Positions 15,612 to 36,384 of a stretch of DNA of 41,438 nt are shown piece after piece. The position numbers were made by a program, and so were the translations under genes. The stretch lies in contig JADGNG010000003.1 in NCBI GenBank assembly GCA_017883585.1, forward strand, positions 1 through 41,438, given 5' to 3'. The notes beneath the pieces are model-generated. The model was given only the letters and a program-made list of their open reading frames with translations, was not told the origin of the DNA and ran no database searches. Each line of letters begins with the position of its first letter. Within the stretch, counting starts at the first letter, position 1. The DNA is from Candidatus Bathyarchaeota archaeon. Lineage in GTDB: Archaea > Thermoproteota > Bathyarchaeia > TCS64.

Positions 15612-15620
15612 CGCGCGCGC
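15612..15620. repeat. alternating C/G tract upstream of the export operon
   Basis: CGCGCGCGC followed by AATTG lies 18 bases before the first possible ATG of the MacB-like ATPase and 160 bases from the divergent regulator start. Confidence 0.9.
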
Positions 15621-15649
15621 AATTGTGATGACGCAACATGGTGGATAAT

Positions 15650-17862: not shown

Positions 17863-17874
17863 GCGATACGTCAA

Positions 17875-19077: not shown

Positions 19078-19161
19078 AAAAATCGAGATAAGGTCTGACT
19101 CTCATAAGGTCACGATGATACATTTTGAGAAGTTTAGAAACTTGCATTTGGAGGATATAGT

Positions 19162-20904
19162 TTGTCTAACCCAATAATCAGGATACTTGGATACCTTAAA
19201 CCCTACTGGCGCATAGTCGCATTATCAATAGTACTACTATTCGTGTCAGTGGGCTCGGATCTAGTAATTCCCACCCTTATTCAACGGATAATTGATGATG
19301 GAATAGTCTCCAAGAACATCACCGTCATAGTGACTTTAACCGCGTTGATGATCGGGGTGGCTCTCCTTGGTGCAGCTGCCACGATAGGCAATACCTTCCT
19401 TGCAATAAGGGCCGCTCAGAGCTTCGCTGCAGACGTAAGAAGCGCCGCATATCACAGGATACAGAAGTTCAGCTTCGGAAACCTCGACAGATTCCAGACT
19501 GGCCAGATCATCACACGACTCACGAGCGATGTGAACTCTGTTCAAATGATTGTGATGATGGGGCTGAGGATGTTCATCAGCGCACCGATAATGATAGTCG
19601 GCAGCATCGCGCTTATGTTCATAATCAACGCGGAGCTCGCCAGAATCGTCCTCCTCCTACTTCCTCTCACCCTGTTACTCGCTGTTGTCTTCGTCTGGAA
19701 GGCTCTTCCGATGTTTCTAGAGGTTCAGAAGAGGCTCGATAGGCTCAACACGGTACTTCAGGAAAATCTCGCAGGCGTTAGGGTCGTGAAGGCCTTCGTG
19801 AGACAGAGCCACGAATCAATGCGTTTTGAGGAAGCGAACACCAGTCTCACGAATCAAACGACTAAGGTGCTCACAATTTTCTCGGTTCTCTTCCCATCGA
19901 TGCTGATAATTATCAATCTGAGCGTGCTCAGTGTCATCTGGTTTGGTGGTCTTGAGGCTATAGGCGGGAGGTTCAGCGTAGGCGACATTCTGGCCTTTGT
20001 CAACTATCTGCTCATCGCTATCTTCCCGCTGATCTTCCTCGCAATAATGTCCAGCCAGCTATCAGCGGCTCAAGCCTCAGCTCAACGCATCTACGAGATA
20101 ATCGACTCGGATCCACAGGTTAAGGAGAAGCCAGATGCTAAGCAACTAAAAGACGTCAAGGGGAAGGTTGCCTTCGAAGATGTCTCTTTCAGCTACTCGG
20201 GCAACCTCAACGAGCCGGTGCTGCAGAACGTCAACCTCGTAGCTGAGCCAGGACAGACCATCGCCATCCTTGGTGCAACGGGCTCAGGGAAGTCAACGCT
20301 GATCGATCTCATCCCACGTTTCTATGATGTCACAAAAGGCAGAATCATGGTCGACGGCGTCGACGTGAGGGATGTGACCCTTGAGTCTCTCCGCTCAAAT
20401 ATAGGCGTGGCATTGCAAGAAGCCATACTCTTCAGCGGAACCATACGCGACAACATCAGGTATGGTAAGCCAGAGGCCACCGAGGAGGAGGTCATCTCGG
20501 CTGCAAAGGCCGCGCAGGCCCACGAGTTCATCATCGGCATGCCGAATGGTTATGATACGGATGTTGGAGAGAGGGGTGCAGGTCTCTCCGGGGGGCAAAA
20601 GCAGAGGATCAGCATCGCTAGGGCTCTGTTGGTTCAGCCCAAGATACTGATACTCGACGACAGTACGAGCTCGGTTGATGTCGAGACTGAGGCGAGGATT
20701 CAGGAGCAACTTGACAGTTTAATGAAGGGTAAAACGAGTTTCATAATTGCACAGAGGATCAGCACCGTTCTCAAGGCGGACAAGATAGTGGTACTCGACA
20801 AGGGCCGCGTCGCCGCAGAGGGCACACACAACGAGTTGATGGAGACGAGCCCAATATATCGGGAGATCTACGACTCTCAGCTCGGTGGAGGGATCAGGCT
20901 ATGA
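19162..20904 (+). CDS. heterodimeric ABC exporter, degenerate half (TM287-like)
   Basis: A 580-residue full half-transporter: six membrane spans (about 15-300), then the nucleotide-binding domain. Walker A is GATGSGKST and the signature LSGGQKQR is intact. After Walker B the catalytic Glu is Asp (ILILDDSTSS), and the switch His is Gln (FIIAQRIST). These are the changes known from the non-consensus site of heterodimers such as TM287/288 and BmrCD. Start is TTG 19162 with GGAGG seven bases upstream. It overlaps the next gene by four bases (ATGA). An 84-base gap from the FtsX gene may hold its own promoter. Cargo unknown; drugs, lipids or peptides are typical. Confidence 0.93.
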   Translation: MSNPIIRILGYLKPYWRIVALSIVLLFVSVGSDLVIPTLIQRIIDDGIVSKNITVIVTLTALMIGVALLGAAATIGNTFLAIRAAQSFAADVRSAAYHRIQKFSFGNLDRFQTGQIITRLTSDVNSVQMIVMMGLRMFISAPIMIVGSIALMFIINAELARIVLLLLPLTLLLAVVFVWKALPMFLEVQKRLDRLNTVLQENLAGVRVVKAFVRQSHESMRFEEANTSLTNQTTKVLTIFSVLFPSMLIIINLSVLSVIWFGGLEAIGGRFSVGDILAFVNYLLIAIFPLIFLAIMSSQLSAAQASAQRIYEIIDSDPQVKEKPDAKQLKDVKGKVAFEDVSFSYSGNLNEPVLQNVNLVAEPGQTIAILGATGSGKSTLIDLIPRFYDVTKGRIMVDGVDVRDVTLESLRSNIGVALQEAILFSGTIRDNIRYGKPEATEEEVISAAKAAQAHEFIIGMPNGYDTDVGERGAGLSGGQKQRISIARALLVQPKILILDDSTSSVDVETEARIQEQLDSLMKGKTSFIIAQRISTVLKADKIVVLDKGRVAAEGTHNELMETSPIYREIYDSQLGGGIRL

Positions 20905-22742
20905 GCAACCAACCTCAAGCCAATAAGCCCGCCGCAAATCAAGACCGAGGAGGCCCAGGCATGGGCTTCGCGAGAGGAGTATCCAGGGCAAAGAACCCCG
21001 GGGTAACGCTATCTCGCCTCATTCGTTACCTCCTAGCATACAGGCTCCAGCTCATACTGATAGGCACATTTGTGGTACTCGGTACCGTCGCGTCGCTGCT
21101 AGGCCCCTACTTCGTGGGCGTAGCAGTCGACCAGTACATAAGTACGGGTAACGTCCCAGGTCTCTACAACGTCGTACTTATCCTGGGATTTATCTACGCT
21201 GTGGGCTTCGTATCCAACGCTCTCCAATCCGTCTTGATGGCGAGGATATCACAGAGGGTGCTGAAGCAGCTTAGGAAGGAGCTCTTCGAGCACCTACAGA
21301 CCCTCAGCCTCAGTTTCTTCGACAAGCGCACACAGGGGGAACTGATGAGCAGGCTTACAAACGACATCGATGCGATCAACCAGGCACTCAGCCAGAGTGT
21401 CACGCAGTTGATTTCGAGTTTCCTATCCATCATCGGCATTTTAATCGTCATGTTCATACTGAACGCTTGGCTCGCGCTGGGGACCCTCCTCGTCTTCCCG
21501 TTGATGATATTTGTTACAATATTCATAGGCAGTAAAACACTAGCAGGCTTCAGGGACCTACAGAGAGACCTTGGCAGGCTCAACAGCACTATGGAGGAGA
21601 CCATCAGTGGCGAGCGGGTCGTGCTGGCATTTAGCAGACAAGATCGTGTGCTAAAGGAGTTTGACCTGGCCAACGATAACGTGCGCAAGGTCGCTACGAA
21701 GGCAAACAGCTATGCTTTCGTTATTATGCCCATTGTGAACATCATGGGCAGCTTAGCCATAGCTGTGGTCGCGGGGCTTGGCGGATGGATGGCCATCCAA
21801 GGCTTGGTTACGATAGGTGTCATAACCAGCTTCATATTCTATACGCGTAACTTCTCGCAGCCACTTCAGCAGCTCGCTAGCCTCTACAACACGATACAAT
21901 CCGCACTCGCGGGGGCGGAGCGCATCTTTGAGACGATAGATGAGAAACCCGAGATAAACGACAAACTCGATGCGAAGCCACTTGAGGAGATAAAAGGTGA
22001 TATCGTCTTCGAGGACGTTGACTTCAGCTACGATGGTAAGACACCGATCTTAAAGAACATGAGCTTCCACGCGGAACCGGGGCAGCTGATGGCGTTGGTT
22101 GGTCCAACGGGGGCGGGGAAGACTACGATGGTAAATGTTCTCAGCAGGTTCTATGACATTCAGTCGGGCTCGATTAGGATCGACGGAGTCGACATTAGGG
22201 ATGTCACACGCGATAGCCTGAGGAAGCAGCTGGGCACCGTGCTTCAGGACAACTTCCTCTTCGCAGACACCGTGATGGAGAACATCCGCTATGGTAACCT
22301 TGAGGCGACTGACGAGGATTGTATGGCCGCAGCGAGGCTTGCGAACGCGGATCAGTTCATCACACGTCTGCCAGAAGGCTATAAAACCATGCTCACCGAA
22401 CGGGGTAGTAACCTGAGCCAGGGGCAGCGCCAGCTTCTCGCCATTGCCCGGGCAATCATCGCGGACCCGAAGATATTGATCCTCGATGAGGCGACGAGTA
22501 ACGTTGACACGAGGACGGAGATCAGGATACAGGAGGCACTGTTGAAGTTGATGGAGGGTAGGACGAGCTTCGTGATCGCCCATAGACTCAGCACTATAAG
22601 GAAGGCTGATCAGGTCCTAGTGATTCGGGACGGCGAGATAGTTGAGCGTGGTACCCACGACTCGCTGCTCGAGGAGAGGGGCTTCTACTATAACCTCTAC
22701 GTTAGCCAGTTCAAGGGAACTAAGGTGGATGAGCCTGTATGA
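20901..22742 (+). CDS. heterodimeric ABC exporter, catalytic half (TM288-like)
   Basis: A 613-residue half-transporter with a Gln/Pro/Ala-rich N-terminal extension of about 35 residues, six membrane spans and a nucleotide-binding domain. Walker A is GPTGAGKTT, Walker B ILILDEATSN with the catalytic Glu, switch His FVIAHRLST. The signature is LSQGQ in place of LSGGQ, as in TM288. So each dimer has one working ATP site, built from this subunit's Walker motifs and the partner's normal signature. The start overlaps the partner's stop (ATGA), and its own stop overlaps the next small gene in the same way, showing tight co-translation. Confidence 0.94.
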   Translation: MSNQPQANKPAANQDRGGPGMGFARGVSRAKNPGVTLSRLIRYLLAYRLQLILIGTFVVLGTVASLLGPYFVGVAVDQYISTGNVPGLYNVVLILGFIYAVGFVSNALQSVLMARISQRVLKQLRKELFEHLQTLSLSFFDKRTQGELMSRLTNDIDAINQALSQSVTQLISSFLSIIGILIVMFILNAWLALGTLLVFPLMIFVTIFIGSKTLAGFRDLQRDLGRLNSTMEETISGERVVLAFSRQDRVLKEFDLANDNVRKVATKANSYAFVIMPIVNIMGSLAIAVVAGLGGWMAIQGLVTIGVITSFIFYTRNFSQPLQQLASLYNTIQSALAGAERIFETIDEKPEINDKLDAKPLEEIKGDIVFEDVDFSYDGKTPILKNMSFHAEPGQLMALVGPTGAGKTTMVNVLSRFYDIQSGSIRIDGVDIRDVTRDSLRKQLGTVLQDNFLFADTVMENIRYGNLEATDEDCMAAARLANADQFITRLPEGYKTMLTERGSNLSQGQRQLLAIARAIIADPKILILDEATSNVDTRTEIRIQEALLKLMEGRTSFVIAHRLSTIRKADQVLVIRDGEIVERGTHDSLLEERGFYYNLYVSQFKGTKVDEPV

Positions 22743-22975
22743 TCTCTACGAAAAATGGCACCGAACATGGCGCCGTAGAACGATGCGATGAAGGTCAAGT
22801 GAATGAATGGAAGGAAAATTCCGGGTTCAACATCAATGAAGAGAAAAAGGTGACGATCTCCGAATCAATTTCGATAAAGTCTACTCAACTTGAGAAAGAC
22901 AATGCCGCAAGAATATTCAATAACCTTTGTCCTGACTGCGGATTCAACGCACGCGCTTCCCCGGGGACTCAATGA
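22739..22975 (+). CDS. small CPDCG-containing protein at the operon end
   Basis: A 78-residue frame coupled to the exporter by an ATGA overlap. The first 60 residues are polar and charged without a recognisable fold. Near the end is NNLCPDCGFNARASPGTQ, a Cys-x-x-Cys-Gly knuckle typical of one half of a zinc ribbon; the second Cys pair is missing. The frame stops 17 bases before an alternating C/G tract, so the gene may have lost its C-terminus. The overlap suggests that it was once, or still is, a true member of the operon. Function unknown. Confidence 0.5.
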   Translation: MISTKNGTEHGAVERCDEGQVNEWKENSGFNINEEKKVTISESISIKSTQLEKDNAARIFNNLCPDCGFNARASPGTQ

Positions 22976-23673
22976 TCTTCGTCGCTGGGGCCCGCGCGCG
23001 CAACTGATCAGGCATGGAGTTGCTCTTAATCTCCGCGTCCTCTAGGGCCTTGCTAAACTATGAACTTAATTACAGACGCTAAACTCAGTTAAGATTAGAA
23101 AGAGAAACCAGGCCACAATAAATCTAGCTTTGATCTCAAAAAATATACAGCCCTCTTAAAGAATAAACTATCACCAGCCATATACAGGAACCTTACCTAT
23201 ACCGTATGCCCCCTGGAGGTAAGTCCCCTATAGGCAGCACTGTGTACGCGGGGACAGGAAAAACGCATGTGCATAAGTAGGTCATATTATTTTATTTTTT
23301 TTAGGTTTATTATTTTAGAATTTTATTTATTTAGATCTTTAGGCTGATTATTTATTTTTTAATTCCATTTTATAGGTTACACGAGGACGGGAACTGTCGG
23401 AGGTTTATCCCAATGGGTCAGCCCCATGTCCCACTCAGAAACGTCTCCATCGATAATGTCATTGACAAGCAGGGCTCTTACACCTAAGATACACCACAAG
23501 TAATCGAGAGAAAAAAGAGGGTGTAAAGTAGTTCATTCGAGATTTACTATCTTGTTAATTTCGTGAAAAATGAATCTATCCAAACCTTAATGAAAAAGAG
23601 GCAAAAAATAGCTGAAGTTGTCTCGCCTAGTGGGATGAACTCATATCTGAGTAGCTGACATAACTCCAATACA
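22976..23673. other. AT-rich gene-poor stretch
   Basis: About 700 bases without a convincing gene. A 23-codon minus-strand frame crosses the C/G tract at its left end. Near 23223-23255 the plus strand can form GTCCCC-(21)-GGGGAC. From 23285 to 23375 the sequence is almost pure A/T with long T-runs (TTTTATTTTTTTTAGG), which would act as a terminator for anything coming from the left. Several T-rich frames here lack homology and are taken as chance. Confidence 0.5.
22993..23001. repeat. alternating C/G tract after the export operon
   Basis: CGCGCGCGC followed by AACTG begins 17 bases after the stop codon of the last operon gene, whose zinc ribbon looks half complete. Confidence 0.9.
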
Positions 23674-24861
23674 GTGAGCAGAATGGTATACGATTTCGAC
23701 ACGATCATAGACAGAATGGGAACCAGCTCCAGCAAGTGGAGCTACGCCAAGAAGATGACGGGGTACGACGACGTCCTACCCATGTGGGTCGCGGACATGG
23801 ACTTCGCCAGCGCCCCAGAGATCGTCGCCGCGATAAAGAAGAGAGCAGAGCACCCGATCTACGGCTACACCTCCAAGACCGACGGCTACTACAACGGCAT
23901 GATAAACTGGATGGCGAAGCGCAACGGTTGGAAGGGAATCCAGCGCGACTGGATCCTTAGCAGCCCTGGCGTCGTCCCCGGCTTCAACTACTGCGTCCAG
24001 GCCTACAGCCACCCCGGTGACAAGGTCATCATCCAGCCCCCCGTCTACTACCCCTTCAAGAATGCAATCCTCAACAATGGCCGCCAGGTCGTCGACAATC
24101 CCCTCAAGATCGTAGACGGCTACTATGAGATGGACTATGAGGACCTCGAGAAGAAGATCGACGGCAGGACGAAGATGATCATCTTCTGCAGCCCACACAA
24201 CCCAGTGGGTCGCGTCTGGAAGAGGGACGAGTTAAAGCACATGGCCGAGATCTGCGAGAAGAAGGACATCGTGATCGTAAGCGACGAGATCCACAGCGAC
24301 CTCATACTGGGAAAGATCAAGCACACCTGTACCGCCACCCTCAGTGACGATGCCCTCATGAGGACAGTAACCCTAACCGCCCCGAACAAGACCTTCAACA
24401 TCGCCGGCCTACAGAACGCCGATGCCATCATCCCCAACAAGAAGCTCAGAGACGCCTTCTTCACTGTCACACAGAACAACAGCGTTAGCAACCCCAACAT
24501 CTTCGGCATCGTCGCACAGGAAGCCGCGTACGCGAAGGGCGAGCCGTGGCTCGAGGAACTGCTCGTTTACCTAAAAGCCAACCTCAAGTATTTTGAGGAC
24601 TACATCAAGAAGAATATGCCAATGCTCAAGGTCTACCCGCTCGAGGGCACATATCTCGCCTGGGTCGACTTCACGGCCCTCGGCATGGGGGACGAGAAGC
24701 TCCATACATGGATGCTCGAGAAAGCCCGCCTCTGGCTCGATGACGGCGTCATGTTCGGCGCTGAGGGCAGCATGTACATGCGCTTCAACATCGCGTGCCC
24801 TAGGGCCATGCTCAAGGACGGCCTCGATAGACTCGCGAAGGCGGTCAAGGCACTAAAGTAG
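23674..24861 (+). CDS. PLP-dependent C-S lyase / aminotransferase (PatB/MalY type)
   Basis: A 395-residue fold-type I PLP enzyme. YDFDTIIDRMGTSSSKWSY and LPMWVADMDFASAPEI at the N-terminus are the hallmark of the MalY/PatB cystathionine beta-lyase group. SDEIHSDL holds the PLP-ring Asp, and TLTAPNKTFNIAGLQNA holds the Schiff-base Lys. YMRFNIACPRAML provides the carboxylate-binding Arg. Likely reaction: beta-elimination of cystathionine or cysteine conjugates to pyruvate, ammonia and a thiol; aminotransferase activity is the alternative. Start is given as GTG 23674; ATG 23683 (VYDFDT) fits homologues equally well. The codons are GC-rich against a very AT-rich upstream region. It stands alone and ends in a hairpin. 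Confidence 0.87.
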   Translation: MSRMVYDFDTIIDRMGTSSSKWSYAKKMTGYDDVLPMWVADMDFASAPEIVAAIKKRAEHPIYGYTSKTDGYYNGMINWMAKRNGWKGIQRDWILSSPGVVPGFNYCVQAYSHPGDKVIIQPPVYYPFKNAILNNGRQVVDNPLKIVDGYYEMDYEDLEKKIDGRTKMIIFCSPHNPVGRVWKRDELKHMAEICEKKDIVIVSDEIHSDLILGKIKHTCTATLSDDALMRTVTLTAPNKTFNIAGLQNADAIIPNKKLRDAFFTVTQNNSVSNPNIFGIVAQEAAYAKGEPWLEELLVYLKANLKYFEDYIKKNMPMLKVYPLEGTYLAWVDFTALGMGDEKLHTWMLEKARLWLDDGVMFGAEGSMYMRFNIACPRAMLKDGLDRLAKAVKALK

Positions 24862-24893
24862 CCGTATTTACGAATCCGGCTACACGATTTTTT
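24858..24893 (+). terminator. hairpin plus T-run after the PatB/MalY gene
   Basis: GTAGCCG-(12)-CGGCTAC overlaps the stop codon and is followed after a few bases by GATTTTTT. It looks like an intrinsic terminator of bacterial style; in archaea the T-run alone is normally enough. Confidence 0.55.
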
Positions 24894-24994
24894 ATCGTTT
24901 TACCCCGTCACCCGAGTTACTGAGGAAGTGCGCTGCAAACTGGCATAATTTGGTATGTAATTAATGTTGTTTAGATTTCACTGATAATCATTAT

Positions 24995-25004
24995 GCGCGC
25001 GCGC
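24995..25004. repeat. alternating C/G tract between PatB/MalY and SHOCT genes
   Basis: TGCGCGCGCGCA, palindromic with its flanking T and A, sits mid-way in the 252-base gap. The rest of the gap shows no gene. Confidence 0.9.
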
Positions 25005-25113
25005 AAACATGGACCAGAGATAACCCTAAACCTACAAATAACCTAAACCCAATGATGCTCACCCGTTAATTGAGCCTATTTTAGACACCGGTTTATAGGG
25101 CGGCGTCTAACCG

Positions 25114-25497
25114 ATGCCTTTGACAGTCATGTACAGAATACATCCTATGAAATGGGCCATCATCGGGTTTGGAGTACTTTTCCTGATCTTTGGCTCAATA
25201 TGGTTTCTCTCAGCCTTCAACCGACCAGCATTTTACACAGGAGGTTACTATGGCATGCCTATGGGGTGGGGCATTGGCTTGATGATCATACCTATGATAA
25301 TCGGATTCATCTTTGTGGTCTTCTTGGTGATGATGGCGCTCAGGTTCATCTTCGGTGCGCCTATGGGTCATCATATGGGCGACGGGATGGGGAGAATGGG
25401 TTATTCCTCGGCCGAGGAGATTCTTCGACAGAGGTATGCTCGGGGAGAGGTTACGAAGGAGCAGTATGATCAGATGCTCCGCGACCTTCGAGAATGA
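25114..25497 (+). CDS. membrane protein with C-terminal SHOCT domain
   Basis: A 127-residue protein with two membrane spans (about 14-33, WAIIGFGVLFLIFGSIWFL; about 52-78, IGLMIIPMIIGFIFVVFLVMM), a Gly/Met/His-rich linker (GHHMGDGMGRMGY), and a C-terminal SHOCT motif (SAEEILRQRYARGEVTKEQYDQMLRDL). SHOCT domains are short oligomerisation modules found at ends of many membrane proteins. The Met/His-rich linker could bind copper or other metals; that is a guess. A TATA-like GGTTTATAG lies at about 25089-25097, so ATG 25114 would have almost no leader; ATG 25129 and 25150 are alternative starts. A YHS-like remnant, a family also linked to metals, follows on the other strand. Confidence 0.78.
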   Translation: MPLTVMYRIHPMKWAIIGFGVLFLIFGSIWFLSAFNRPAFYTGGYYGMPMGWGIGLMIIPMIIGFIFVVFLVMMALRFIFGAPMGHHMGDGMGRMGYSSAEEILRQRYARGEVTKEQYDQMLRDLRE

Positions 25498-25502
25498 AGA
25501 AA

Positions 25503-25710
25503 TTAACACAATACACGCGGACGCGAATGTTCGTTTAATTGAATATTGCATATTGCATATTTCGCGAACTTCTTTGGGTTCTTATCGAAGGTTAGCTTAC
25601 ATCCCTCGCCGCAGTAGTACTTCTTCCCTTTGTACTTACTGGCGCGCGCCACGCGTGGTCAATTTTTCTTTAGCGGATTTCGCATCCTCTAGGATCTCAT
25701 ATACCTTCAT
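25503..25710 (-). pseudogene. YHS-domain-like remnant with frame change
   Basis: On the minus strand the frame from ATG 25710 reads MKVYEILEDAKSAKEKLTT then R-G-A-R-Q and a stop near 25637. One frame over, a piece beginning at 25652 reads YKGKKYYCGEGCKLTFDKNPKKFAKY, a clear match to the second half of a YHS metal-binding domain (usual pattern YxGKxYYFCSExCKxxFEKNPEKY). Intact family members join these parts with no extra residues. The break coincides with the C/G tract at 25642-25649. A second tract lies eight codons before the ATG. A 49-residue protein from GTG 25652 could still be made, but without the domain's first half. Reading it as a pseudogene is inference. Confidence 0.6.
25642..25649. 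repeat. alternating C/G tract inside the YHS-like remnant
   Basis: GCGCGCGC within the palindrome GGCGCGCGCC lies exactly where the YHS-like sequence changes frame. Confidence 0.9.
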
Positions 25711-25722
25711 GCACGTTTTGCT

Positions 25723-25730
25723 GCGCGCGC
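25723..25730. repeat. alternating C/G tract upstream of the YHS-like remnant
   Basis: GCGCGCGC followed by AAC is only 73 bases from the previous tract and lies just ahead of the remnant's first Met codon (minus strand). Confidence 0.9.
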
Positions 25731-25806
25731 AACACCTTGGGTGATTTCTGATGAATAGCACCCCAAACCGGCAAGGCTAATAACCGACCATTACAGAATT
25801 TCTAAC

Positions 25807-26091
25807 ATGGCTACAGTCCTTGTCAGACATAAAGTGAACGACTACGCAAAATGGAAGGCCGTTCTCGATGAGACAAAGCCGATGGCGAAGAAGTTTGGCG
25901 TAAGAAGCCAAAGGGTCCTCAGGAACTTCGCCAACCCCAACGAGGTAGTCGTGGTAAACGAGTTTGACGACATGAACACTGCCCAGAAGTTCGCACAGTC
26001 AGACGAGTTGAAGAAGATAATGGAGCGTGCCGGCGTGGCGGAAACCCCCAGCGTCTGGTTCCTAAACGAAGCGGACAAGTTCACGCTCTAG
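25807..26091 (+). CDS. antibiotic biosynthesis monooxygenase-like dimeric alpha-beta barrel protein
   Basis: A 94-residue protein with the ferredoxin-like fold of the ABM / dimeric alpha-beta barrel group. VLVRHKVNDYAKWKAVLDE at the start gives the first strand and helix. EVVVVNEFDDMNTAQKFAQSDELKKIMERAGV is the second half, and PSVWFLNEADKF the last strand. Archaeal relatives are short stand-alone proteins of unknown role, not proven monooxygenases. Start ATG 25807 is well defined. The stop codon is followed after two bases by an alternating C/G tract. It is a single-gene unit with no coupled neighbour. Confidence 0.75.
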   Translation: MATVLVRHKVNDYAKWKAVLDETKPMAKKFGVRSQRVLRNFANPNEVVVVNEFDDMNTAQKFAQSDELKKIMERAGVAETPSVWFLNEADKFTL

Positions 26092-26093
26092 GT

Positions 26094-26101
26094 GCGCGCG
26101 C
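26094..26101. repeat. alternating C/G tract right after the ABM-like gene
   Basis: GCGCGCGC followed by AACT begins two bases after the ABM-like stop and two bases beyond the stop of a converging 38-codon frame. Confidence 0.9.
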
Positions 26102-26103
26102 AA

Positions 26104-26220
26104 CTAAAGTGTCGAGTTTTTATAGAAATTCCAACTAATCCCATCATCTTTAAGCTCTTTTGCGGTACACTCAGCACAAAGTCTCGGAGATAATCCACTG
26201 TCAAACGTGTACGCGCGCAT
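26104..26220 (-). CDS. hypothetical 38-residue Cys-x-x-Cys peptide
   Basis: An ATG-started frame (MRAYTFDSGLSPRLCAECTA, then KELKDDGISWNFYKNSTL). LCAEC could be a zinc knuckle. The start codon runs directly into a C/G tract (ATG-CGC-GCG) and the stop lies two bases from another tract, so both ends are bounded by the same motif. This suggests a fragment of a larger zinc-binding protein kept between two scars. It may equally be a real micro-gene. No family is known to me. Confidence 0.35.
   Translation of the reverse strand: MRAYTFDSGLSPRLCAECTAKELKDDGISWNFYKNSTL
26212..26218. repeat. short alternating C/G tract (7 bases)
   Basis: CGCGCGC at the 5' end of the 38-codon minus-strand frame, 72 bases upstream of the hppA leader frame. 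Below eight bases, so weaker than the others. Confidence 0.6.
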
Positions 26221-26289
26221 TTTTTATGCAAAATTAGGCAAGTCGTCTAATAACCTTTATCTCTGTAACCTACCCGCGCTAATCTAAGC

Positions 26290-26352
26290 ATGAAGGTCAA
26301 CCGAAACCGGACGAACCTTCAAACAATCAAAGAGGATAATCAGAGATCTTAG
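26290..26352 (+). CDS. possible upstream leader peptide of hppA
   Basis: A 20-codon frame from ATG 26290 (MKVNRNRTNLQTIKEDNQRS) whose TAG stop ends two bases before the hppA ATG at 26355. A TATA-like TCTAATAACC at about 26246-26255 would start transcription just before it. Its position allows translational coupling or attenuation. It could also be a chance frame within the leader; there is no homology to judge by. Confidence 0.3.
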   Translation: MKVNRNRTNLQTIKEDNQRS

Positions 26353-26354
26353 AT

Positions 26355-28319
26355 ATGGACCCCCTAATTCTCACGTTCTCAACGATAGTCCTTGCAGGTA
26401 TTCTCCTACTACTCATCTACCGCTGGGTATTCTCCCACAAGATCGAGCAGATAGGAATCTCACAGATTTCAGAAAAGATACAGAAAGGAACCGCCGCTTA
26501 CATGAACACACAATTCAGTGTGCTCATAATAATGATCCCCGTCCTCGCTATCGCCATCTTCTTCACCCTGGGCTGGATAACATCAGCAACCTTCGTAGTA
26601 GGCGCGTTGATGTCGATCCTATCCGCCTACTCGGTGATGAGGCTCGTCGTAAGAGTCCACGGACGAGTCACGGACGCGGCGCGGAAGTCCTCGCTAACTG
26701 CGTTCCGAATCGCCTTCATGGGTGGAAGTCTCATGGGTCTCTCAGTACCCGCCCTCAGCCTTGCGGGTGTTGTCCTACTCTTCATTATCTTTAAGGATCC
26801 GAACGACCTCGTAGGCTTTGGCTTCGGCGCCAGCCTAATCGCCCTATTCGCGCAGGTCGGTGGAGGTATCTTTACGAAGGCCGCAGACATCGGAGCCGAC
26901 CTCGTTGGGAAAGTCGAGAAGGGAATCCCCGAGGATGACCCTAGGAACCCCGCTGTGATCGCTGACCTAGTAGGAGACAACGTTGGCGACTGCGCGGGCA
27001 GAGGGGCCGACCTCTTCCAGAGTTTCAGCGGCGACATGATCACGGGCATGATGCTCGGAGCCGCCTTCATCGGCAAATACGGTTTCAATGCAGTAATCTT
27101 CCCAGTACTGCTTCCATGCGCTGGGTACATCGCATCCGTTGTCGGAGTGATGCTCGTAAGACAGCTAAAGATGGACCCCTCTAGAACGATCACAATTGGG
27201 CTAGCTACTACCTTCTTACTCACAACCATCGGTTCATATTTCCTAGCTACTTCTCTCTTGGGTGACATCACCCTCTTCTTCTCAATCCTGAGTGGACTCG
27301 TCGCTGTGCTAATCTCAATCTACGTTGCGCAGTACTACACAGGTTACAGGGGGAAACCAGTGCGAAGCATAGCTGAAGCCTCCCAAAGGGGGTCAGCGAT
27401 CAACATTATCACGGGGCTCGCCTACGCATTCCAGAACCCACTCTTCCCAGTCGCCGGAGTGATCGGTGCAGCGGTCTTCTCCTACATCATCTCCGGTTAC
27501 TCCCTCTACGCCATCGCTATCGCAAACATTGGCACCGACCTAATGATCGGTTTCATAATGTCAGCTGACGCCTTCGGCCCCATTTCAGATAACGCGAATG
27601 GAGTAGCAGAGATGGCTCACGAGGAAAAGGCCGCAGAGAACCTTACGCTCCTCGATGCCGTCGGCAACAGCATGAAGGCATACACTAAGGCTCTGAGCAT
27701 GACGACAGGCACGTTGACCGCCTTCGCGGTCTTCATCACCTTCTTCGAGTTAGCTGGAGTTAAGAGTCTGAGTCTAATCAATCCATTCAACGTTGCAGCA
27801 ATCTTCATCGGTGTGGCTGTGAGTTTCCTAGTGGCGAGTCTGACAATTGGCTCAACCGCGAAGACTGCTATGACGATGGTGGATGAAGTAAGGAAGCAGT
27901 TCCAGAACCCTGGTGTAATGGCGGGTACCGTAGAACCCGATTATGCAGGTCCCATAAATATCTCCACGAGGGCAGCTCTAAGGGAGATGATCTGGCCGGG
28001 ACTGATTGCCATAGTCCCAACTGTAGTGGTCGGTGTTTTACTTGGCGCGGAAACTCTAGTAGCGTACCTTATCGGTGTCACTGTCTCAGCGGTGTCGTTG
28101 GCTGTATTCTTCAACAATGGTGGCGCTGCCTTCGATAACGCGAAGAAGCTGATCGAGACAGGGCTCTATGGTGGGAAGGGGTCTGAGACTCACAAGGCAG
28201 CCGTAGTAGGGGATACTGTTGGCGATCCCATGAAGGATGTCGCTGGTCCGAGCCTCATTATCTTCATGAAGCTGGTGGGACTCACCGCACTTCTGATTCT
28301 GCCTATTCTAATTAGATAA
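26355..28319 (+). CDS. hppA: membrane-bound proton-translocating pyrophosphatase, K+-independent type
   Basis: A 654-residue integral membrane enzyme with about 16 spans that couples PPi hydrolysis to proton pumping. The catalytic signature DIGADLVGKVEKGIPEDDPRNPAVIADLVGDNVGD lies near residues 180-215, and DTVGDPMKDVAGPS near the C-terminus. The segment GNSMKAYTKA has Lys441 and Thr444 at the two positions that separate K+-independent pumps (Lys and Thr) from K+-dependent ones (Ala and Gly/Ala). So it should be a K+-independent H+ pump; this follows from the family rule and is not tested. ATG 26355 is well placed. Single-gene transcript with a possible leader peptide. Confidence 0.96.
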   Translation: MDPLILTFSTIVLAGILLLLIYRWVFSHKIEQIGISQISEKIQKGTAAYMNTQFSVLIIMIPVLAIAIFFTLGWITSATFVVGALMSILSAYSVMRLVVRVHGRVTDAARKSSLTAFRIAFMGGSLMGLSVPALSLAGVVLLFIIFKDPNDLVGFGFGASLIALFAQVGGGIFTKAADIGADLVGKVEKGIPEDDPRNPAVIADLVGDNVGDCAGRGADLFQSFSGDMITGMMLGAAFIGKYGFNAVIFPVLLPCAGYIASVVGVMLVRQLKMDPSRTITIGLATTFLLTTIGSYFLATSLLGDITLFFSILSGLVAVLISIYVAQYYTGYRGKPVRSIAEASQRGSAINIITGLAYAFQNPLFPVAGVIGAAVFSYIISGYSLYAIAIANIGTDLMIGFIMSADAFGPISDNANGVAEMAHEEKAAENLTLLDAVGNSMKAYTKALSMTTGTLTAFAVFITFFELAGVKSLSLINPFNVAAIFIGVAVSFLVASLTIGSTAKTAMTMVDEVRKQFQNPGVMAGTVEPDYAGPINISTRAALREMIWPGLIAIVPTVVVGVLLGAETLVAYLIGVTVSAVSLAVFFNNGGAAFDNAKKLIETGLYGGKGSETHKAAVVGDTVGDPMKDVAGPSLIIFMKLVGLTALLILPILIR

Positions 28320-28341
28320 GCGAAATTGACTCTCCCCCTAT

Positions 28342-28506
28342 CTAGTTCAGATATCCTAATTCTCGTAGAAATCTGCGAACAGCTTCAACTGTAAACTCAG
28401 GAATATCAGAATAACCATATTCACTACTGTCTAGTACTTCCTGTATTTTTAGGGCCAAATTTTCTGGAAGATTAACAGTGTGATAATTGTACTTCATCTT
28501 GCCCAT
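28342..28506 (-). CDS. small ribbon-helix-helix-like protein
   Basis: A 54-residue protein from ATG 28506: MGKMKYNYHTVNLPENLALK, then IQEVLDSSEYGYSDIPEFTVEAVRRFLRELGYLN. One beta-strand (YHTVNLP) and two helices fit the CopG/Arc ribbon-helix-helix fold. The SGEYGYSSxPEFxxEAxRxFL pattern is common in archaeal RHH regulators. A TATA box (CTTTAAAAG on the minus strand, 28544-28552) lies 38 bases upstream. It converges on hppA with 22 bases between stops. It has no toxin partner next to it. Probably a DNA-binding regulator; target unknown. Confidence 0.8.
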   Translation of the reverse strand: MGKMKYNYHTVNLPENLALKIQEVLDSSEYGYSDIPEFTVEAVRRFLRELGYLN

Positions 28507-28543
28507 ATTGGTACACTACTATCTTTAGGTCCATATTCGTTTA

Positions 28544-28552
28544 CTTTTAAAG
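28544..28552 (-). promoter_or_regulatory. TATA box of the RHH-like gene
   Basis: CTTTAAAAG read on the minus strand, 38 bases before the ATG, in the spacer right of the gene. Confidence 0.5.
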
Positions 28553-28591
28553 CACGCGTGAAGTAGCCCTGAGGAATAAATTATTACCTTG

Positions 28592-28599
28592 GCGCGCGC
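28592..28599. repeat. alternating C/G tract left of the isoaspartyl peptidase gene
   Basis: GCGCGCGC lies in the 263-base gap between the RHH-like and isoaspartyl peptidase genes. The remainder of the gap is AT-rich with a small hairpin (CACCC-CCCAGC-GGGTG at about 28626-28641) and no supported gene. Confidence 0.9.
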
Positions 28600-28769
28600 A
28601 TAAATACAATTAAACTTGCGAGAATGCACCCCCCAGCGGGTGACAAAACCACTCTTTAAACAGGAGTATTCTCTAAAAAGAGGCACTCGTTATAATGAAA
28701 AGCATCAAAATCTAAACAAAATTACCGATATTTTGTTATATCCTGCCACTCCACTGATATTTGGCCGTA

Positions 28770-29654
28770 ATGACAGACCCTGTTATAGTCATACATGGTG
28801 GAGCGTGGGCGATACCTGAAAGGCTCGTCGACGTTAACATAAGCGGCGTCGAAGACGCTGCCAGGAAGGGGTGGGGAGTCCTTGGGAAAAGCGGCTCGGC
28901 ACTCGACGCAGTCGTCGCAGCCGTCAAAGCCCTCGAAGACAACCCTGTCTTCGACGCTGGCATCGGCTCGGTACTCACAGAGGATGGTACCGTCGAGATG
29001 GACGCCATGATAATGGACGGCTCCTCCCTCGGCGCCGGAGCCGTAGCCGGGCTCCACGACATCAGGCACCCAGTCGACCTTGCCCGCATCGTAATGGAGA
29101 GGACGCCACACGTCCTCATGATCGGGGATGGCGCCCGGAGGCTCGCGGAGAAGTACAAGGTCGAGAAGCTCACCCAGAAACAACTCGTGACCGAGGAGGC
29201 CCGTCGGGAGCTGGCAGAGTGGCTGGAGAAGAAGAGGGCCGGGACGGCTTTCGGCCACGAGACCGTCGGCGCTGTAGCGCTCGACGCGAAGGGCAACCTG
29301 GCGGCGGCGACTTCAACTGGCGGGATGACGGGCAAGCTCGTCGGTAGGGTAGGAGATGTCCCCATCGTGGGCAGCGGCGGCTACGCCGACAACAAGTTAG
29401 GCGGAGCCTCCTCAACCGGCCACGGCGAAGCCATTATGAAGGTTAACCTCGCAAGGCTCGTCCTAACCCATGTGGAAGCAGGTGCCCTCATACAGGAGGC
29501 TACGGATAGGGCTCTAGCCTACATGATGGAGCGCGTCGCTGGGACAGGCGGTGTCATAGCACTAGACCCAAAGGGTAACGTGGGGCACAGCTACACGACG
29601 CCACATATGGTCTGGGCAACCGCTAGGAACGGGAAGATAGAGTCGGGCATATAA
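28770..29654 (+). CDS. plant-type isoaspartyl peptidase / L-asparaginase (Ntn hydrolase T2)
   Basis: A 294-residue precursor that self-cleaves to free an N-terminal Thr and then hydrolyses L-asparagine and beta-aspartyl dipeptides. The start IVIHGGAWAIPE is typical. The cleavage site is H-E before Thr165 in GHETVGAVALD. ATSTGGMTGKLVGRVGDVP, GSGGYAD and STGHGEA line the active site as in the family. I start at ATG 28770, which gives homology from the first residues; a TTG at 28761 is possible. ATATTTTGTTATATCC just upstream may hold the TATA box, implying a leaderless mRNA. With the IadA-like gene it is the second beta-aspartyl-type hydrolase in the window. Converges with a metalloprotease-like gene. 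Confidence 0.92.
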   Translation: MTDPVIVIHGGAWAIPERLVDVNISGVEDAARKGWGVLGKSGSALDAVVAAVKALEDNPVFDAGIGSVLTEDGTVEMDAMIMDGSSLGAGAVAGLHDIRHPVDLARIVMERTPHVLMIGDGARRLAEKYKVEKLTQKQLVTEEARRELAEWLEKKRAGTAFGHETVGAVALDAKGNLAAATSTGGMTGKLVGRVGDVPIVGSGGYADNKLGGASSTGHGEAIMKVNLARLVLTHVEAGALIQEATDRALAYMMERVAGTGGVIALDPKGNVGHSYTTPHMVWATARNGKIESGI

Positions 29655-29664
29655 TCCCCGAAGA

Positions 29665-30006
29665 TTAAACCACCCTTTTCTTGTACTCCTTTAGGTAATC
29701 CCGGGCGAACTCGTTTGCATATCGCTCGGTCCCCTTATGGCGGCCGCTCACCGACCTGAGGTGGTGGTAGAACTCGTGGAGAATGAGGAACGGGTTAGTT
29801 AGTCCCTCGCCGCTGGCAACAAAGATGGTCACCTTGTCGAGCACATAGCAGCCCGCGACGTGGGCGTGGCCCTTTGGGAGGCCGACCTCGAGTTTTGGGA
29901 TATCGACGTTGTAACGGTCTGCTAGCTCCTTCAGCGCTTCCCCGGCTTCATTAGATAGGATCATATGAACAATCCTCGCCTTGAAACCCCCATCGACGCC
30001 AGCCAA
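29665..30006 (-). CDS. small HExxH metalloprotease-like protein
   Basis: A 113-residue protein with ILHEFYHHLR, an HExxH zinc site (His77, Glu78, His81), and downstream GTERYANEFARDYL, where Glu94 or Glu99 could be the third ligand as in gluzincins. The N-terminal part (KELADRYNVDIPKLEVGLP, then VAGCYVLDKVTIFVASGEGLTNP) matches the strand region seen in other minimal metalloproteases. Start is taken as TTG 30006; Met15 (MILSNEAGEAL) is the other candidate. Its size is that of a single minimal catalytic domain with no signal peptide, so it should be cytoplasmic. Target unknown. It converges on the isoaspartyl peptidase gene, ten bases apart. Confidence 0.7.
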   Translation of the reverse strand: MAGVDGGFKARIVHMILSNEAGEALKELADRYNVDIPKLEVGLPKGHAHVAGCYVLDKVTIFVASGEGLTNPFLILHEFYHHLRSVSGRHKGTERYANEFARDYLKEYKKRVV

Positions 30007-30558: not shown

Positions 30559-30567
30559 CTTTTAAAC
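30559..30567 (+). promoter_or_regulatory. TATA box of the MetE-like gene
   Basis: CTTTTAAAC centred 35 bases before the TTG start at 30598, giving a leader of only a few bases. Confidence 0.5.
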
Positions 30568-30597: not shown

Positions 30598-31494
30598 TTG
30601 GAGAGAACTACCATCGGCAGCTTCCCCCGGGCGGAGAAGCCCCTAGAGGAGGCGGTGGCGGAGGTCATCGACCTACAGCTCAGGCACGGCATTGAAGTCA
30701 TCACCGACGGGGAGCAAAGGGCGGACATGATCACCTATTTCGAGCAGGTCCCTGGCCTCGCCCGAGGGGGTAGAGGGCTCAGGGTGTCAGAAAAGATCCG
30801 CCCGATGGACGACCCCGGCAGCTTCTACAAGATTGTGGACTACGCCCTCGTCAGGCCACAGCTCGGGGGTAGAGTGAAGGGAAAGATCACGATAACCGGC
30901 CCCGTCACACTCGGCATGACCGCCGCGATGGGTGGCATCACCGGTTACTCCAACGTGCGGGACCCATCCCTGTACGAGGACTGTGCCGATGCCCTCATAC
31001 CTCTAGCCGAGAAGGCACTCGACCTTGGGGCTCACCTACAGATCGACGAGCCCGGTCTATCGGCGAAGTTCGAGTCCCCAAAGTATACGGAGCGACTATT
31101 CTCCGCCCTGCCGGACAAAGCGATAGACGAAGGAAGAGTAAGCCTGCATGTCTGCGGCTCCGTCGGGAGGGTCTTCGACGAGCTCATGAGTCTCAGCGTC
31201 AATGTCTTCAGCTTCGGCTTCAGCAGGGCGCAAGAATCTAAAAACATGGGGTTGATTGCTGAGAAGTCGCTGAGGGAAGGAAAGAGGCTGGGTGTGGGAT
31301 TCATCTCAAACACTATGCTGGAGACGGCCGATACCGCTCAGGCGCGCCTCGAGAAAATAGCAAGGATCATAGGTGTGAAGAACATCGCCTACATTAACCC
31401 CGACTGCGGCTTCGCCCCGACCACCCCCAATCTGGTCGAGCCGATATTGAGGAACATGAAGGAGGCATCCGACGGCTTCCTCCGCTCGCTCTGA
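30598..31494 (+). CDS. MetE-like cobalamin-independent-type methyltransferase (short archaeal form)
   Basis: A 298-residue protein equal to the C-terminal catalytic barrel of methionine synthase MetE. TTIGSFPRA opens the barrel; VITDGEQR, TGPVTLG and IDEPGL follow. The zinc-site residues are His184 and Cys186 in LHVCGS and Cys270 in NPDCGFAPTTPNL. In methanogens such short forms take a methyl group from methylcobalamin to homocysteine; I infer the same type of reaction here because it faces a corrinoid protein gene with two bases between the stops. Starts at TTG 30598; a nearby ATG at 30587 is out of frame. The acceptor (homocysteine, another thiol) is not settled by sequence. Confidence 0.86.
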   Translation: MERTTIGSFPRAEKPLEEAVAEVIDLQLRHGIEVITDGEQRADMITYFEQVPGLARGGRGLRVSEKIRPMDDPGSFYKIVDYALVRPQLGGRVKGKITITGPVTLGMTAAMGGITGYSNVRDPSLYEDCADALIPLAEKALDLGAHLQIDEPGLSAKFESPKYTERLFSALPDKAIDEGRVSLHVCGSVGRVFDELMSLSVNVFSFGFSRAQESKNMGLIAEKSLREGKRLGVGFISNTMLETADTAQARLEKIARIIGVKNIAYINPDCGFAPTTPNLVEPILRNMKEASDGFLRSL

Positions 31495-31496
31495 GG

Positions 31497-32147
31497 CTAC
31501 TTCGTCCATTCCTTGCAGATCGTGACGCCTTCGACGGCGTCCCTCGCGGCTGCGTCGGCGCCGATAGAGGCTGCGTATGCGGCGTCCACTGCTGCTCCCC
31601 CGATTATTACCTTCACACCTGCCATTAGACCCCGCTTCTTCAGCTCCGCGACGGTGTCGGCCATACTGGTCATAGTTGTTGTTATGAGGGCTGACATCCC
31701 GAGGATGTTCGGTTTGGTTTTCTCCACCGCGTCGGCGAAAGCCGCTGGCGACACGTCGTACCCCAGATCAACGACCCTGAATCCCGCCCCACGTAGTAGG
31801 TTACCAAAGATGTGCTTTCCTATGTCATGCAGATCCCCTTGGACAGTGCCTATGACTACAGTGCCCCTGAGTTTAGCTCCTTTTTCCATGAGATGGGGCT
31901 CGACGACCTCTAAAGCCGCTTTCATTGTCTCCCCAGCCATAACGAGTTCGGAGAGGAAGTAGTCGCCGCTCTCATACCTCCCGCTAACCACATCCATGCC
32001 CCTCGCCATCCCATTGACGATTATCTCGTAGGGGGGAACGCCCATTTCGATGGCGGTAGCACAGAGCTCGGCCGCTTTCGCGGGGTCGAAGTTGGTGACA
32101 GCCTCACTGATCTCCCATAGGATTTGTTGCTTATCCAATTCATCCAC
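31497..32147 (-). CDS. corrinoid (B12-binding) methyl-carrier protein, MtaC/MtbC type
   Basis: A 216-residue corrinoid protein. The N-terminal helical cap (about 1-85, with SGDYFLSELVMAGETM) is followed by a Rossmann-like cobalamin domain with GDLHDIGKHI, whose His serves as lower axial ligand to cobalt, then LGYDVSP, MSALITTTM and VIIGGAAV. Length and order equal those of the MtaC/MtbC/MtvC carriers that accept methyl groups from a substrate-specific methyltransferase. Its start overlaps the end of the UroD-like gene by eight bases, so the two are coupled and made together. No activating RamA-type iron-sulfur protein is in the window; it would be needed to keep the cobalt reduced. Confidence 0.92.
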   Translation of the reverse strand: MDELDKQQILWEISEAVTNFDPAKAAELCATAIEMGVPPYEIIVNGMARGMDVVSGRYESGDYFLSELVMAGETMKAALEVVEPHLMEKGAKLRGTVVIGTVQGDLHDIGKHIFGNLLRGAGFRVVDLGYDVSPAAFADAVEKTKPNILGMSALITTTMTSMADTVAELKKRGLMAGVKVIIGGAAVDAAYAASIGADAAARDAVEGVTICKEWTK

Positions 32148-33282
32148 TTCCCAGGGTCTTTCTGTAGCTTCCCGCTGCTTGGAACATGGCGACGACGTTC
32201 CGCGGGGGGACGTCCGCCTGTATGTTGTGTGCGCCCGCTAGGATGAGACCCCCGCCTTTGCCACCGACGCGGGAAATCCGCCTTACCTCCGCCCCCACCT
32301 CCTCCGTTGAACCGTTAGGGAGGAGCCTCTGTATGTCCACACCGCCGTGGAAACAGAGCTTGTCTCCGAAGTCCCTCTTCAGGCCCTCGATCTCCATATT
32401 CGCTGCCAGCGGCTGGATGGGGTTGAGGACATCGAGCCCGAGGTCAATAAGGTCGGGGATGAGCTGGTAGACGGAGCCGCAGGTGTGGAGGAATAGCTTG
32501 GCCTTCGTCTTGCTCCGTATTAGCTTGAAGAGCTTCTGGTACCGGGGCTTCAGATACCTGTTGAACATAGCTGGCGACATGATGGGCCCCGTCTGCATGC
32601 CGAGGTCATCGTTGTAATCGATCATCTGGATGTAAGGGCCGACGACATCGAGGTACCCACCGTAGAACTCCATGTAGAGTTCCAGAATCTTATCCAAGAA
32701 CTTAGAGGCGAACTCAGGCCTCCTGTAGAGGTCAACCGTGAAGGTTTCGAAGCCCCTGAGCCACCAGGCGCACTCGTAGATGCCCCCGAAGAAGGCGTCA
32801 GCCTGAATCGCGTAGTCGGTGTTATGATAGAAGTCCTCAGTCTCCTCCCTCAGCCCCTCGAGCCTTGCCGGGTTCCTCGGGTCTGGCCAGTCGAAATCGT
32901 CGAGGTCGCCGACCCCCGCGTCCTTCAGCGGGTGGTCGACCATGTCATAGTAATTCGGGTTCCGCCCCCACTTGATGCCCCACTCGTCGACGAAGTAGGG
33001 CCTCCCCGAGGCATCGGGTGTGATTCCACCTGGGCCGGGTACTGCCTTCAGGGCGACGTGGCGGAAATCGACGCCGAGTCTCTCAAGGACAACGTCATCC
33101 GGCTTCGCCAGCTGCTGGACGTCTCGCGGATCGATCCTTACATCCACGTCGATATTCAGGGCATGAATAAGATTGGCATACGCCTTATTGTGTATCCCCG
33201 ACACAGTACCGCCGAGGTCGACGGGCAACCTGTCGGGCTCCCTGTGGCTGAGGGCTTCGACAACTCGTTCTCTCGGGTTCAT
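32140..33282 (-). CDS. UroD-family corrinoid methyltransferase
   Basis: A 380-residue member of the uroporphyrinogen-decarboxylase-like family. MNPRERVVEALSHREPDRLPVDLGG is the family start. The barrel has FLHTCGSVYQLIPDLIDLGLDVLNPIQP, where His and Cys bind zinc in the methyltransferase branch, and HGGVDIQRLLPNG. True HemE lacks this HxCG zinc site, and its substrate Arg/Asp set is not seen. So it is a methyltransferase acting with the overlapping corrinoid protein. It could be the substrate-specific MT1 (as for methoxylated aromatics, glycine betaine or methylamines) or the MT2 (as MtaA/MtbA); length slightly favours the former. ATG 33282 with a TATA-like GTGATATTAGC upstream at about 33317-33327. 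Confidence 0.88.
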   Translation of the reverse strand: MNPRERVVEALSHREPDRLPVDLGGTVSGIHNKAYANLIHALNIDVDVRIDPRDVQQLAKPDDVVLERLGVDFRHVALKAVPGPGGITPDASGRPYFVDEWGIKWGRNPNYYDMVDHPLKDAGVGDLDDFDWPDPRNPARLEGLREETEDFYHNTDYAIQADAFFGGIYECAWWLRGFETFTVDLYRRPEFASKFLDKILELYMEFYGGYLDVVGPYIQMIDYNDDLGMQTGPIMSPAMFNRYLKPRYQKLFKLIRSKTKAKLFLHTCGSVYQLIPDLIDLGLDVLNPIQPLAANMEIEGLKRDFGDKLCFHGGVDIQRLLPNGSTEEVGAEVRRISRVGGKGGGLILAGAHNIQADVPPRNVVAMFQAAGSYRKTLGSG

Positions 33283-35168: not shown

Positions 35169-36384
35169 TTAAAACTGTAACTGGACTTTCTTCGTCTCCC
35201 TAAGCCAGAGGCAGGAGACGAAGACCACCAGCAGCAGGATCGACGAGAGGTAGAAGGACATCGCGTTCCCGTATTCCCCCACGACCCAGATCATGAGGAT
35301 GGGGCCAAAAACCGAACCCATGTCGAAGAATGTGCGGTAGGTACCCACCGCAGCGCCCCTGTGCTCGGGGTCAACGACTTCCGCAGCGATCACGGGGCAG
35401 ATTATATTGACGGCGCCTGTTGTGATCCCGATGAGGAACATGACGACCGTAATCGCGGTGAACCCAACCATGAAGCTAAGGACCACACTCATGATCGCTG
35501 TGCCGAGGGCACCGAAGAGTATGACGGGCTTCCTCCCGATCCTGTCAGAGATGGTGCCCATAAATAACATAGAGAGCACGTACCCGATTGACCTGGCGCC
35601 CTGGACGAAGCCAATGTCGGTAAGAGACATTCCAAGCGTCCCGTTAAGATAGAGGGGAATGTCGTGAAGAGTACACCCTGGTAGAGCATGAAGTTCATCA
35701 GCGTCACGGCGCAGACGATGAGCAGCCCCTGTTCATCAGGACCTTGGGGATCGTCGAAAGCTTTATGCTCGATGCAGTTGGCAGCGTCTTGATCTCCCTG
35801 CGCAGGGAGGGCAGAAAGAGGAGGAAGAGACCCACGACAGCCATAGCCGTGGATAGGTAGAAGGCACCGATGAAACCGAGGCCGGTGATTATAACCCCGC
35901 TGAAGGTTGAGGCGAGGGTGCTCCCTAGGAACTCTATCCCCTGGAAGAGGCCCATCGCGCTCTCCCTCCGTACAATCGAGAACATGTTTATTATCAGTGT
36001 CATCGAGACCGCAAAGATTAGAGCAGCCTCTATCCCCAGAAGAATCCTCGCGAAGAAGAGCTGGATCGGATCGACGACGTAGGCGCAGAGGATGTTGTCG
36101 ACGGCTGTCAGCAGTAGGCCGACCGCCATGGGGCGGTAGTAGCCGAACTTCGTCGAGATGAAACCGCGGGGGATCTCGAGGAGGACCCTCGCGACCCAGT
36201 AGGCGGAGACGGAGAGGCCGATCCAGACCCCTACGGCCCCCACCTGCTTGGCATAGATCACCAGGAGCGGGTTGATTAGCTGCGTGCTGAACATCGCGAG
36301 CACGGCGATAATGCATAGTAAAATGTAGGTTAGGCTGTAGCGGCCTTGAGCCATGCTTGGTATGGTGGAATCCGCGAGGCTCAT
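35169..36384 (-). pseudogene. MFS transporter gene with two frame changes
   Basis: A major facilitator gene of normal total size (about 405 codons) read in three frames. The first 210 codons (from ATG 36384; spans such as LTYILLCIIAVLAMFSTQL and YWVARVLLEIPRGF, motif-A-like GFISTKFGYYRP) end after STIPKVLMNRG near 35725. The next stretch, GLLIVCAVTLMNFMLYQGVLF, lies in a second frame to about 35660. The last six spans (MSLTDIGFVQGARSIGYVLSML, GTISDRIGRKPVILFGALGT) are in a third, ending at 35169. Either the gene is newly dead or the sequence has two single-base errors; both breaks are within 70 bases. Homology is otherwise continuous. It follows the SDR gene by 16 bases on the same strand. 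Confidence 0.75.

Follow-up and report, generated by a model that had tools for sequence, protein, structure and literature searches.

We describe a cluster of three adjoining genes, in a genome of Candidatus Bathyarchaeota archaeon (GCA_017883585.1), that probably moves a methyl group from a methylated compound through a corrinoid protein to homocysteine, yielding methionine. The cluster occupies positions 30,598 to 33,282 of the window, by which we mean the whole stretch of DNA analyzed (41,438 nucleotides of contig JADGNG010000003.1), and encodes a MetE-like protein, a corrinoid protein, and a UroD-like protein that would act as the substrate-side methyltransferase (MT1); we infer the transfer steps, the acceptor, and the direction. 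The features concerned are as follows.

30598..31494, plus strand: gene for the MetE-like core methionine synthase (TTG start, TGA stop; 298 amino acids; Pfam PF01717)
31497..32147, minus strand: gene for the corrinoid protein (GTG start, TAG stop; 216 amino acids; PF02607 and PF02310)
32140..33282, minus strand: gene for the UroD-like protein, a putative methyl-compound:corrinoid methyltransferase, MT1 (ATG start, TGA stop; 380 amino acids; PF01208)
31495..31496, no strand: gap between the convergent stop codons of the MetE-like and corrinoid protein genes (bases GG)
30560..30566, plus strand: TATA-like TTTTAAA, ending 31 bases upstream of the MetE-like start

The open reading frame (ORF) coordinates bear out in full the layout given in an earlier annotation made without database searches (the sequence-only reading), with overlapping UroD-like and corrinoid protein genes, a facing MetE-like gene, and two bases between the stops; the overlap is 8 bases. 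The TTTTAAA upstream of the MetE-like gene is a possible promoter for a nearly leaderless transcript.

The MetE-like protein belongs to a distinct archaeal family of core methionine synthases, which lack the folate domain. Its sole Pfam domain is Meth_synt_2 (74.8 bits, above the curated Pfam cut-off), and it consists of a single MetE catalytic domain without the folate-binding N-domain, its model aligning to residues 404 to 732 of Thermotoga maritima MetE. The AlphaFold model (predicted local distance difference test [pLDDT], 94.7) is closest among solved structures to the MesD-type 3rpd (Z 30.6, 275 aligned, 2.0 Å); MetE C-terminal domains match at Z about 24 to 30, and MtaA lower, at Z 22.5. 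Residue alignment places the homocysteine-site residues at S8, E39, and D150 and retains three zinc-site residues, H184, C186, and C270. Across the family, D150, H184, C186, and C270 are present in 66 of 66 aligned rows, and the S8 and E/Q39 positions are conserved in all 65 rows that have a letter there (row L142 starts late, which leaves one gap in these counts). The protein scores 134.8 bits against the MesA model PRK00957 (NCBIfam), below its curated cut-off of 258; the placement of the family relative to MesA-MesD relies on such model scores and on residues.

A profile built from five members of the family found 40 matches scoring over 180 bits among 398 genomes from the same phylum, followed by a gap down to 108 bits, and matched 12 of 227 genomes in the phylum of the Borrarchaeota locus L019. 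A scan of named genome contigs gave 23 loci, all archaeal by title, one of which (L035) we read as split MetE. The sequence-only reading would have been undermined had the protein grouped with standard methionine synthases lacking corrinoid partners; in a 71-row tree, the family and the catalytic subunits of split MetE are separated at 100/99. The window protein falls in a 17-row clade with 16 other rows. The two MetE-like proteins linked to UroD, those of the window and of L019, stand apart in a first tree, while a second tree permits them on one side of a branch (95/89). The first tree left out L103, L104, L106, L107, and L119 as repeats, L155 for a broken frame, and L032 as partial; L023 is missing from the trees because a longer antisense ORF masks its MetE-like frame, and it was counted for linkage. 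At three loci from Nitrososphaeria (L013, L014, and L015), the MetE-like gene lies about 2 kb from two split-MetE genes, making neighbors of both kinds of methionine synthase.

Genes for corrinoid proteins lie near MetE-like genes more often than expected by chance. A corrinoid protein gene occurs within 3 kb of 30 of the 67 family genes (L035, as a split MetE, L155, L032, and L201, which shares a contig with L033, were left out of this count), and the density is 30 in 420 kb near the MetE-like gene versus 1 in 352 kb of farther flank at the same loci, the single distant gene belonging to the MttB locus L028. With 21 loci from one group of mcr-bearing Thermoproteota (f27) removed, the density near the MetE-like gene is 10 in 285 kb and that farther away is 1 in 315 kb. 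In f27, which we infer to be akin to Methanomethylicia from the presence of mcrA in all 11 genomes tested and from PMC7886697, the genes for the corrinoid protein, MetE-like protein, and MtrH stand in a row; the corrinoid gene and MtrH are each found at 20 of 21 loci, one locus lacking the former and another most of the latter because the contig ends there.

The partners elsewhere differ. MtaB, the methanol type, is the partner in Brockarchaeota, at three loci (L031, L034, and L109), with RACo nearby at L034 and L109. A corrinoid-MttB pair faces the MetE-like gene at five Asgard loci, and MttB adjoins it at the Thermoplasmata locus L028. UroD and corrinoid genes face it at two loci, the window and L019, with the gene order reversed between them. 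Three Asgard loci (L192, L193, and L194) carry MTHFR, MetE-like, and MtrH genes in a row, a near-complete route from methyl-pterin to methionine, with no corrinoid gene nearby; these rows tie the family to the chemistry of methyl-pterin and methionine. By gene content, the MetE-like enzyme looks to be paired with at least three further methyl sources in related archaea: MtaB, MttB, and MtrH. Several loci without a corrinoid gene have short flanks (e.g., L110 and L018), and L029 has two UroD-family genes and no corrinoid gene nearby. Tandem MetE-like genes occur in Borrarchaeum (L022, 10001-12009, and L033, 10001-12010), and a corrinoid gene is absent from the surrounding 3 kb.

The corrinoid protein looks like a methyltransferase-associated methyl carrier of the MtaC/MtgC type. 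Its B12-binding (85.2 bits) and B12-binding_2 (66.8 bits) matches both exceed the Pfam cut-offs, its DxHxxG motif (D105, H107, G110) is invariant in four of four aligned sequences, and its nearest solved structure is 1y80 (153.5 bits). It scores 175.4 bits on TIGR02370, under the cut-off of 215.3, and resembles the MtgC, MtbC, and MtaC models, each with a score under the respective cut-off.

The UroD-like protein is, by knowledge of its family, most likely the substrate-side methyltransferase. It matches URO-D at 87.6 bits, above the Pfam cut-off, its gene adjoins that of its own corrinoid protein, and sequence comparison finds a thiol methyltransferase, 4ay7, as the nearest protein of solved structure (E value 8.2e-5). 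Among 29 aligned rows, the window included, H266 is present in 29, C268 in 20, and H352 in 28; these residues align with His, Cys, and Cys of MtaA, which we take to be the MtaA zinc ligands. Two more specific identities were rejected. The HemE (uroporphyrinogen decarboxylase) model TIGR01464 has no match at an E value of 0.001, which speaks against the porphyrin enzyme that the sequence-only reading had named as its other potential undoing. The MtaA/CmuA model TIGR01463 gives 55.7 bits versus a cut-off of 235.4, with the third Cys replaced by His352, and an MtaA-type model likewise matches weakly (61.6 bits versus 244). The structure model is poor (pLDDT 69.7, residues 23 to 86 below 50) and its best matches nearly tie (UroD, Z 23.9; MtaA type, Z 22.9), so the fold is undecided between the HemE and MtaA types. 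Candidate substrates, by analogy with known members of the superfamily, are methoxylated aromatics, chloromethane, and methylthio compounds.

In the route that we propose, the UroD-like enzyme would demethylate a small methylated compound and load the methyl group onto Co(I) of the corrinoid protein, and the MetE-like enzyme would place the corrinoid-borne methyl group on homocysteine to form methionine. The MetE-like enzyme would serve as an exchangeable acceptor module, partnered in its relatives by MtaB (methanol), MttB (a quaternary or tertiary amine), or MtrH (methyl-pterin); where MtrH is the partner, in f27 and Asgard archaea, methyl-pterin is probably the source from which the same final step yields methionine. 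The sequence-only reading had suggested a route from methylated compound through corrinoid to a thiol such as homocysteine, and it gains support from the homocysteine residues and three zinc residues, the MetE C-domain fold, and the recurrence of linked corrinoid genes alongside four different types of methyl-loading enzyme. Its remark that the acceptor is not coenzyme M agrees with the genome, in which no mcrA, MtrH, or CdhD/CdhE was found, and the lack of a methanogenesis gene and RamA that it saw near the cluster extends to the genome in that neither mcrA nor a RACo/RamA domain was detected.

The rest of the genome and its relatives supply further context. The assembly is 84.65% complete and 5.86% contaminated. 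MtrH (PF02007) and the corrinoid subunits CdhD/CdhE (CoFeSP, PF03599) are each found in zero of six genomes of the genus, the window genome included. The genome has four B12-binding matches, of which the window corrinoid protein is the strongest and one, on contig C36, is a radical SAM protein; a second UroD-family protein on C36 scores 83.8 bits versus the MtaA cut-off of 244 and hence is not MtaA. In same-family genomes with CdhD and MtrH, the MtrH gene adjoins UroD-corrinoid pairs (L167, L168, and L169), and another same-family locus (L166) has such a pair with RACo and MtrH; the window has a MetE-like gene where these relatives have MtrH. At L169 (502-5414), corrinoid-MttB, MtrH, and UroD-corrinoid genes lie side by side, suggesting that a single MtrH might serve two demethylases.

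Several observations count against the proposed route. G207 replaces the zinc-ligand Glu of MetE, leaving the window protein without the full set of four ligands (His, Cys, Glu, Cys). A complete split MetE is encoded on contig C34, with adjacent catalytic and N-domain genes, and the window enzyme is consequently a second methionine synthase that is not obviously needed. The MetE-like gene and its partners lie on opposite strands. For the 16 proteins closest to it in the tree, the 3 kb around the gene, or as much of it as the contig covers, contains no corrinoid gene. The MetE-like gene is present in none of the 31 genus, family, and order relatives of the window genome, so the window cassette looks acquired or repeatedly lost. 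Finally, no RACo/RamA activator domain was found in the genome, though single absences are weak because the assembly is only 84.65% complete.

Some of these points favor a reading in which the genes are ordinary neighbors, the UroD-corrinoid demethylase passing its methyl group elsewhere (to an unrecovered MtrH or other second methyltransferase, MT2) and the MetE-like protein being a separate synthase that ended up there by chance. The opposite strands, the lack of an adjacent corrinoid gene in the 16 nearest relatives, the existence of UroD-corrinoid pairs without a MetE-like gene (L123, L132, and L134), and the incomplete genome are all compatible with it. We nevertheless consider it unlikely, given that linkage recurs with UroD, MtaB, MttB, and MtrH in several clades alongside the contrast in corrinoid gene density, that MtrH is absent from six of six congeners, and that the MetE-like protein has no methyl-pterin domain, the N-domain subunit of split MetE adjoining its own catalytic subunit. 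One of the unlinked pairs, L134 of Thermoproteota (2775-7506), comprises a UroD-type MT1 and a corrinoid protein in a row that also contains RACo and an MtaA-like protein.

Methionine salvage would be a particular form of the proposed route, in which the UroD-like protein would demethylate a methylthio or methylseleno compound and the MetE-like protein would move the methyl group to homocysteine. His352 stands at the position of what is presumably the third zinc Cys of MtaA, and the MtaA/CmuA score is far under its cut-off; both argue against this version, which we regard as improbable. In its favor, 4ay7 is a thiol methyltransferase, and UroD-superfamily S- or Se-demethylases with corrinoid partners have been proposed for type 1 mlp clusters of bacteria (PMC10418091).

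Transfer to a thiol other than homocysteine (e.g., sulfide or another small thiol), with a product other than methionine, is in our view quite improbable. It could account for the loss of the fourth zinc ligand, the Glu being absent in 58 of 66 family rows (Ala in 45, Ser in 8, Gly in 5, and Glu in the remaining 8) and retained in five of five split MetE subunits used for comparison, and for the fact that the complete split MetE already makes methionine. Against it stand the three Asgard operons that join the MetE-like gene to MTHFR and MtrH, and the MetE-like genes of L013 to L015, about 2 kb from split MetE genes. We also considered, comparing by description only, whether the MetE-like protein is the Bathyarchaeia-specific MtgB of about 300 amino acids in PMC10989822; the cluster there has mtgA (MT2) and mtgC, and among the same-class MetE-like genes examined a corrinoid gene lies within 3 kb only in the window and MtrH in none. 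A chance or misbinned contig is disfavored by many DNA matches, of about 65 to 77%, to same-genus and same-family genomes over the second half of contig C51.

The remaining neighboring ORFs, whose translations were judged by eye only, have no evident tie to the cluster. A major-facilitator transporter gene on the minus strand (35169-36384) is apparently broken into different frames (ORFs 35704-36384 and 35169-35630, separated by a third frame) and is weakly similar to such genes by the L019 cluster and by Thermoplasmatota MetE-like genes. The G+C content is about 0.50 to 0.53 at 12000-30000 and 0.57 to 0.59 on either side, with an edge just ahead of the MetE-like gene. The segment 21444-22723 is a duplicate, with 82% DNA identity to a second site, on C44 of this genome, and with similarity to sites in many family members.

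More broadly, the core methionine synthases may include this family as a fifth, still unnamed one, which plugs into corrinoid methyltransferase systems as their acceptor in Thermoproteota, Asgard archaea, and Thermoplasmatota, by which archaea without the Wood-Ljungdahl pathway could route methanol, amine, and other methyl groups into methionine and S-adenosylmethionine without a pterin; we are evenly divided on this proposal. If it is true, the family would provide the second methyltransferase that Brockarchaeota seem to lack, which PMC8065059 postulates as an undescribed protein, with no mention of methionine in the available text; the divergent MetE-like gene beside mtaB-mtaC in Brockarchaeota is a candidate for that methyl acceptor. 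Likewise, the mtrH and corrinoid genes that stand alone in mcr-bearing Thermoproteota, which PMC10033731 and PMC6783470 take to hint at methanogenesis from unknown substrates, would represent a methionine synthase; that the operon includes MetE favors an anabolic role. Asgard MttB and MtrH are described in PMC11291895, again without mention of methionine in the available text, and Bathyarchaeia with demethylases yet no recognized activator have been reported (PMC10989822; PMC10477458). The family bears on the question of which corrinoid protein supplies the core methionine synthases of archaea, whose physiological methyl donor was only predicted in papers of 2020 and 2021; the gene neighborhoods point to specific candidate donor proteins.

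Compared with known systems, the cluster is like the MtaABC and MtbA methanol and methylamine systems in that an MT1 and a corrinoid protein are joined by a zinc thiol methyltransferase from the same superfamily. MtaA and MtbA act on coenzyme M; no mcrA was detected in the window genome. The MT1 of the Mto O-demethylase system of Methermicoccus and Archaeoglobus is presumably of the UroD type. In that system, too, the MT1 works with a 22-kDa corrinoid protein, but the methyl group goes to a pterin via the MtrH-like MtoA, where the window has the MetE-like gene and the genome no detected MtrH; the UroD-corrinoid and MtrH layouts at L166 to L169 are much like that of Mto (PMC8630106). MtgBCDE of marine bacteria similarly combines a demethylase and a methionine-forming subunit that share one corrinoid protein, and differs in being bacterial and in having an MttB-type MT1, a MetH-type homocysteine subunit (pfam02574), a pterin subunit, and no core MetE (PMC12478193).

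The closest published gene arrangement is that of Ca. Methanomethylicus mesodigestum, where one sentence of PMC7886697 places a corrinoid protein gene and mtrH beside metE and allows an anabolic role; this is most likely the f27 operon, with MtrH where the window has UroD. The MtrH-corrinoid-metE trio is thus already in the literature, and versions with UroD, MtaB, or MttB were not found there, nor any such linkage of this family in a search mainly at the title and abstract level, supplements not covered. The core methionine synthases MesA-MesD consist of a MetE catalytic domain without a folate domain and are supposed to use a corrinoid methyl donor (PMC7857596; PMC7005905), which is unknown in archaea, with MtrH named as a candidate (PMC7005905). 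MesA, MesB, and MesD retain the zinc residues, while zinc binding has been doubted for MesC proteins of MSBL-1, which have Gly at the position (PMC7857596). The window protein resembles MesA-MesD in lacking a folate domain and keeping the homocysteine residues; its family differs in that the zinc Glu is usually Ala, Ser, or Gly and the PRK00957 score is under the cut-off. Unlike MesB and MesC, which are tied to the Wood-Ljungdahl corrinoid protein, it occurs in genomes without AcsC/AcsD (PF03599, zero of six), and many of its members, unlike MesA-MesD, adjoin a dedicated corrinoid protein gene of the MtaC/MtgC type.

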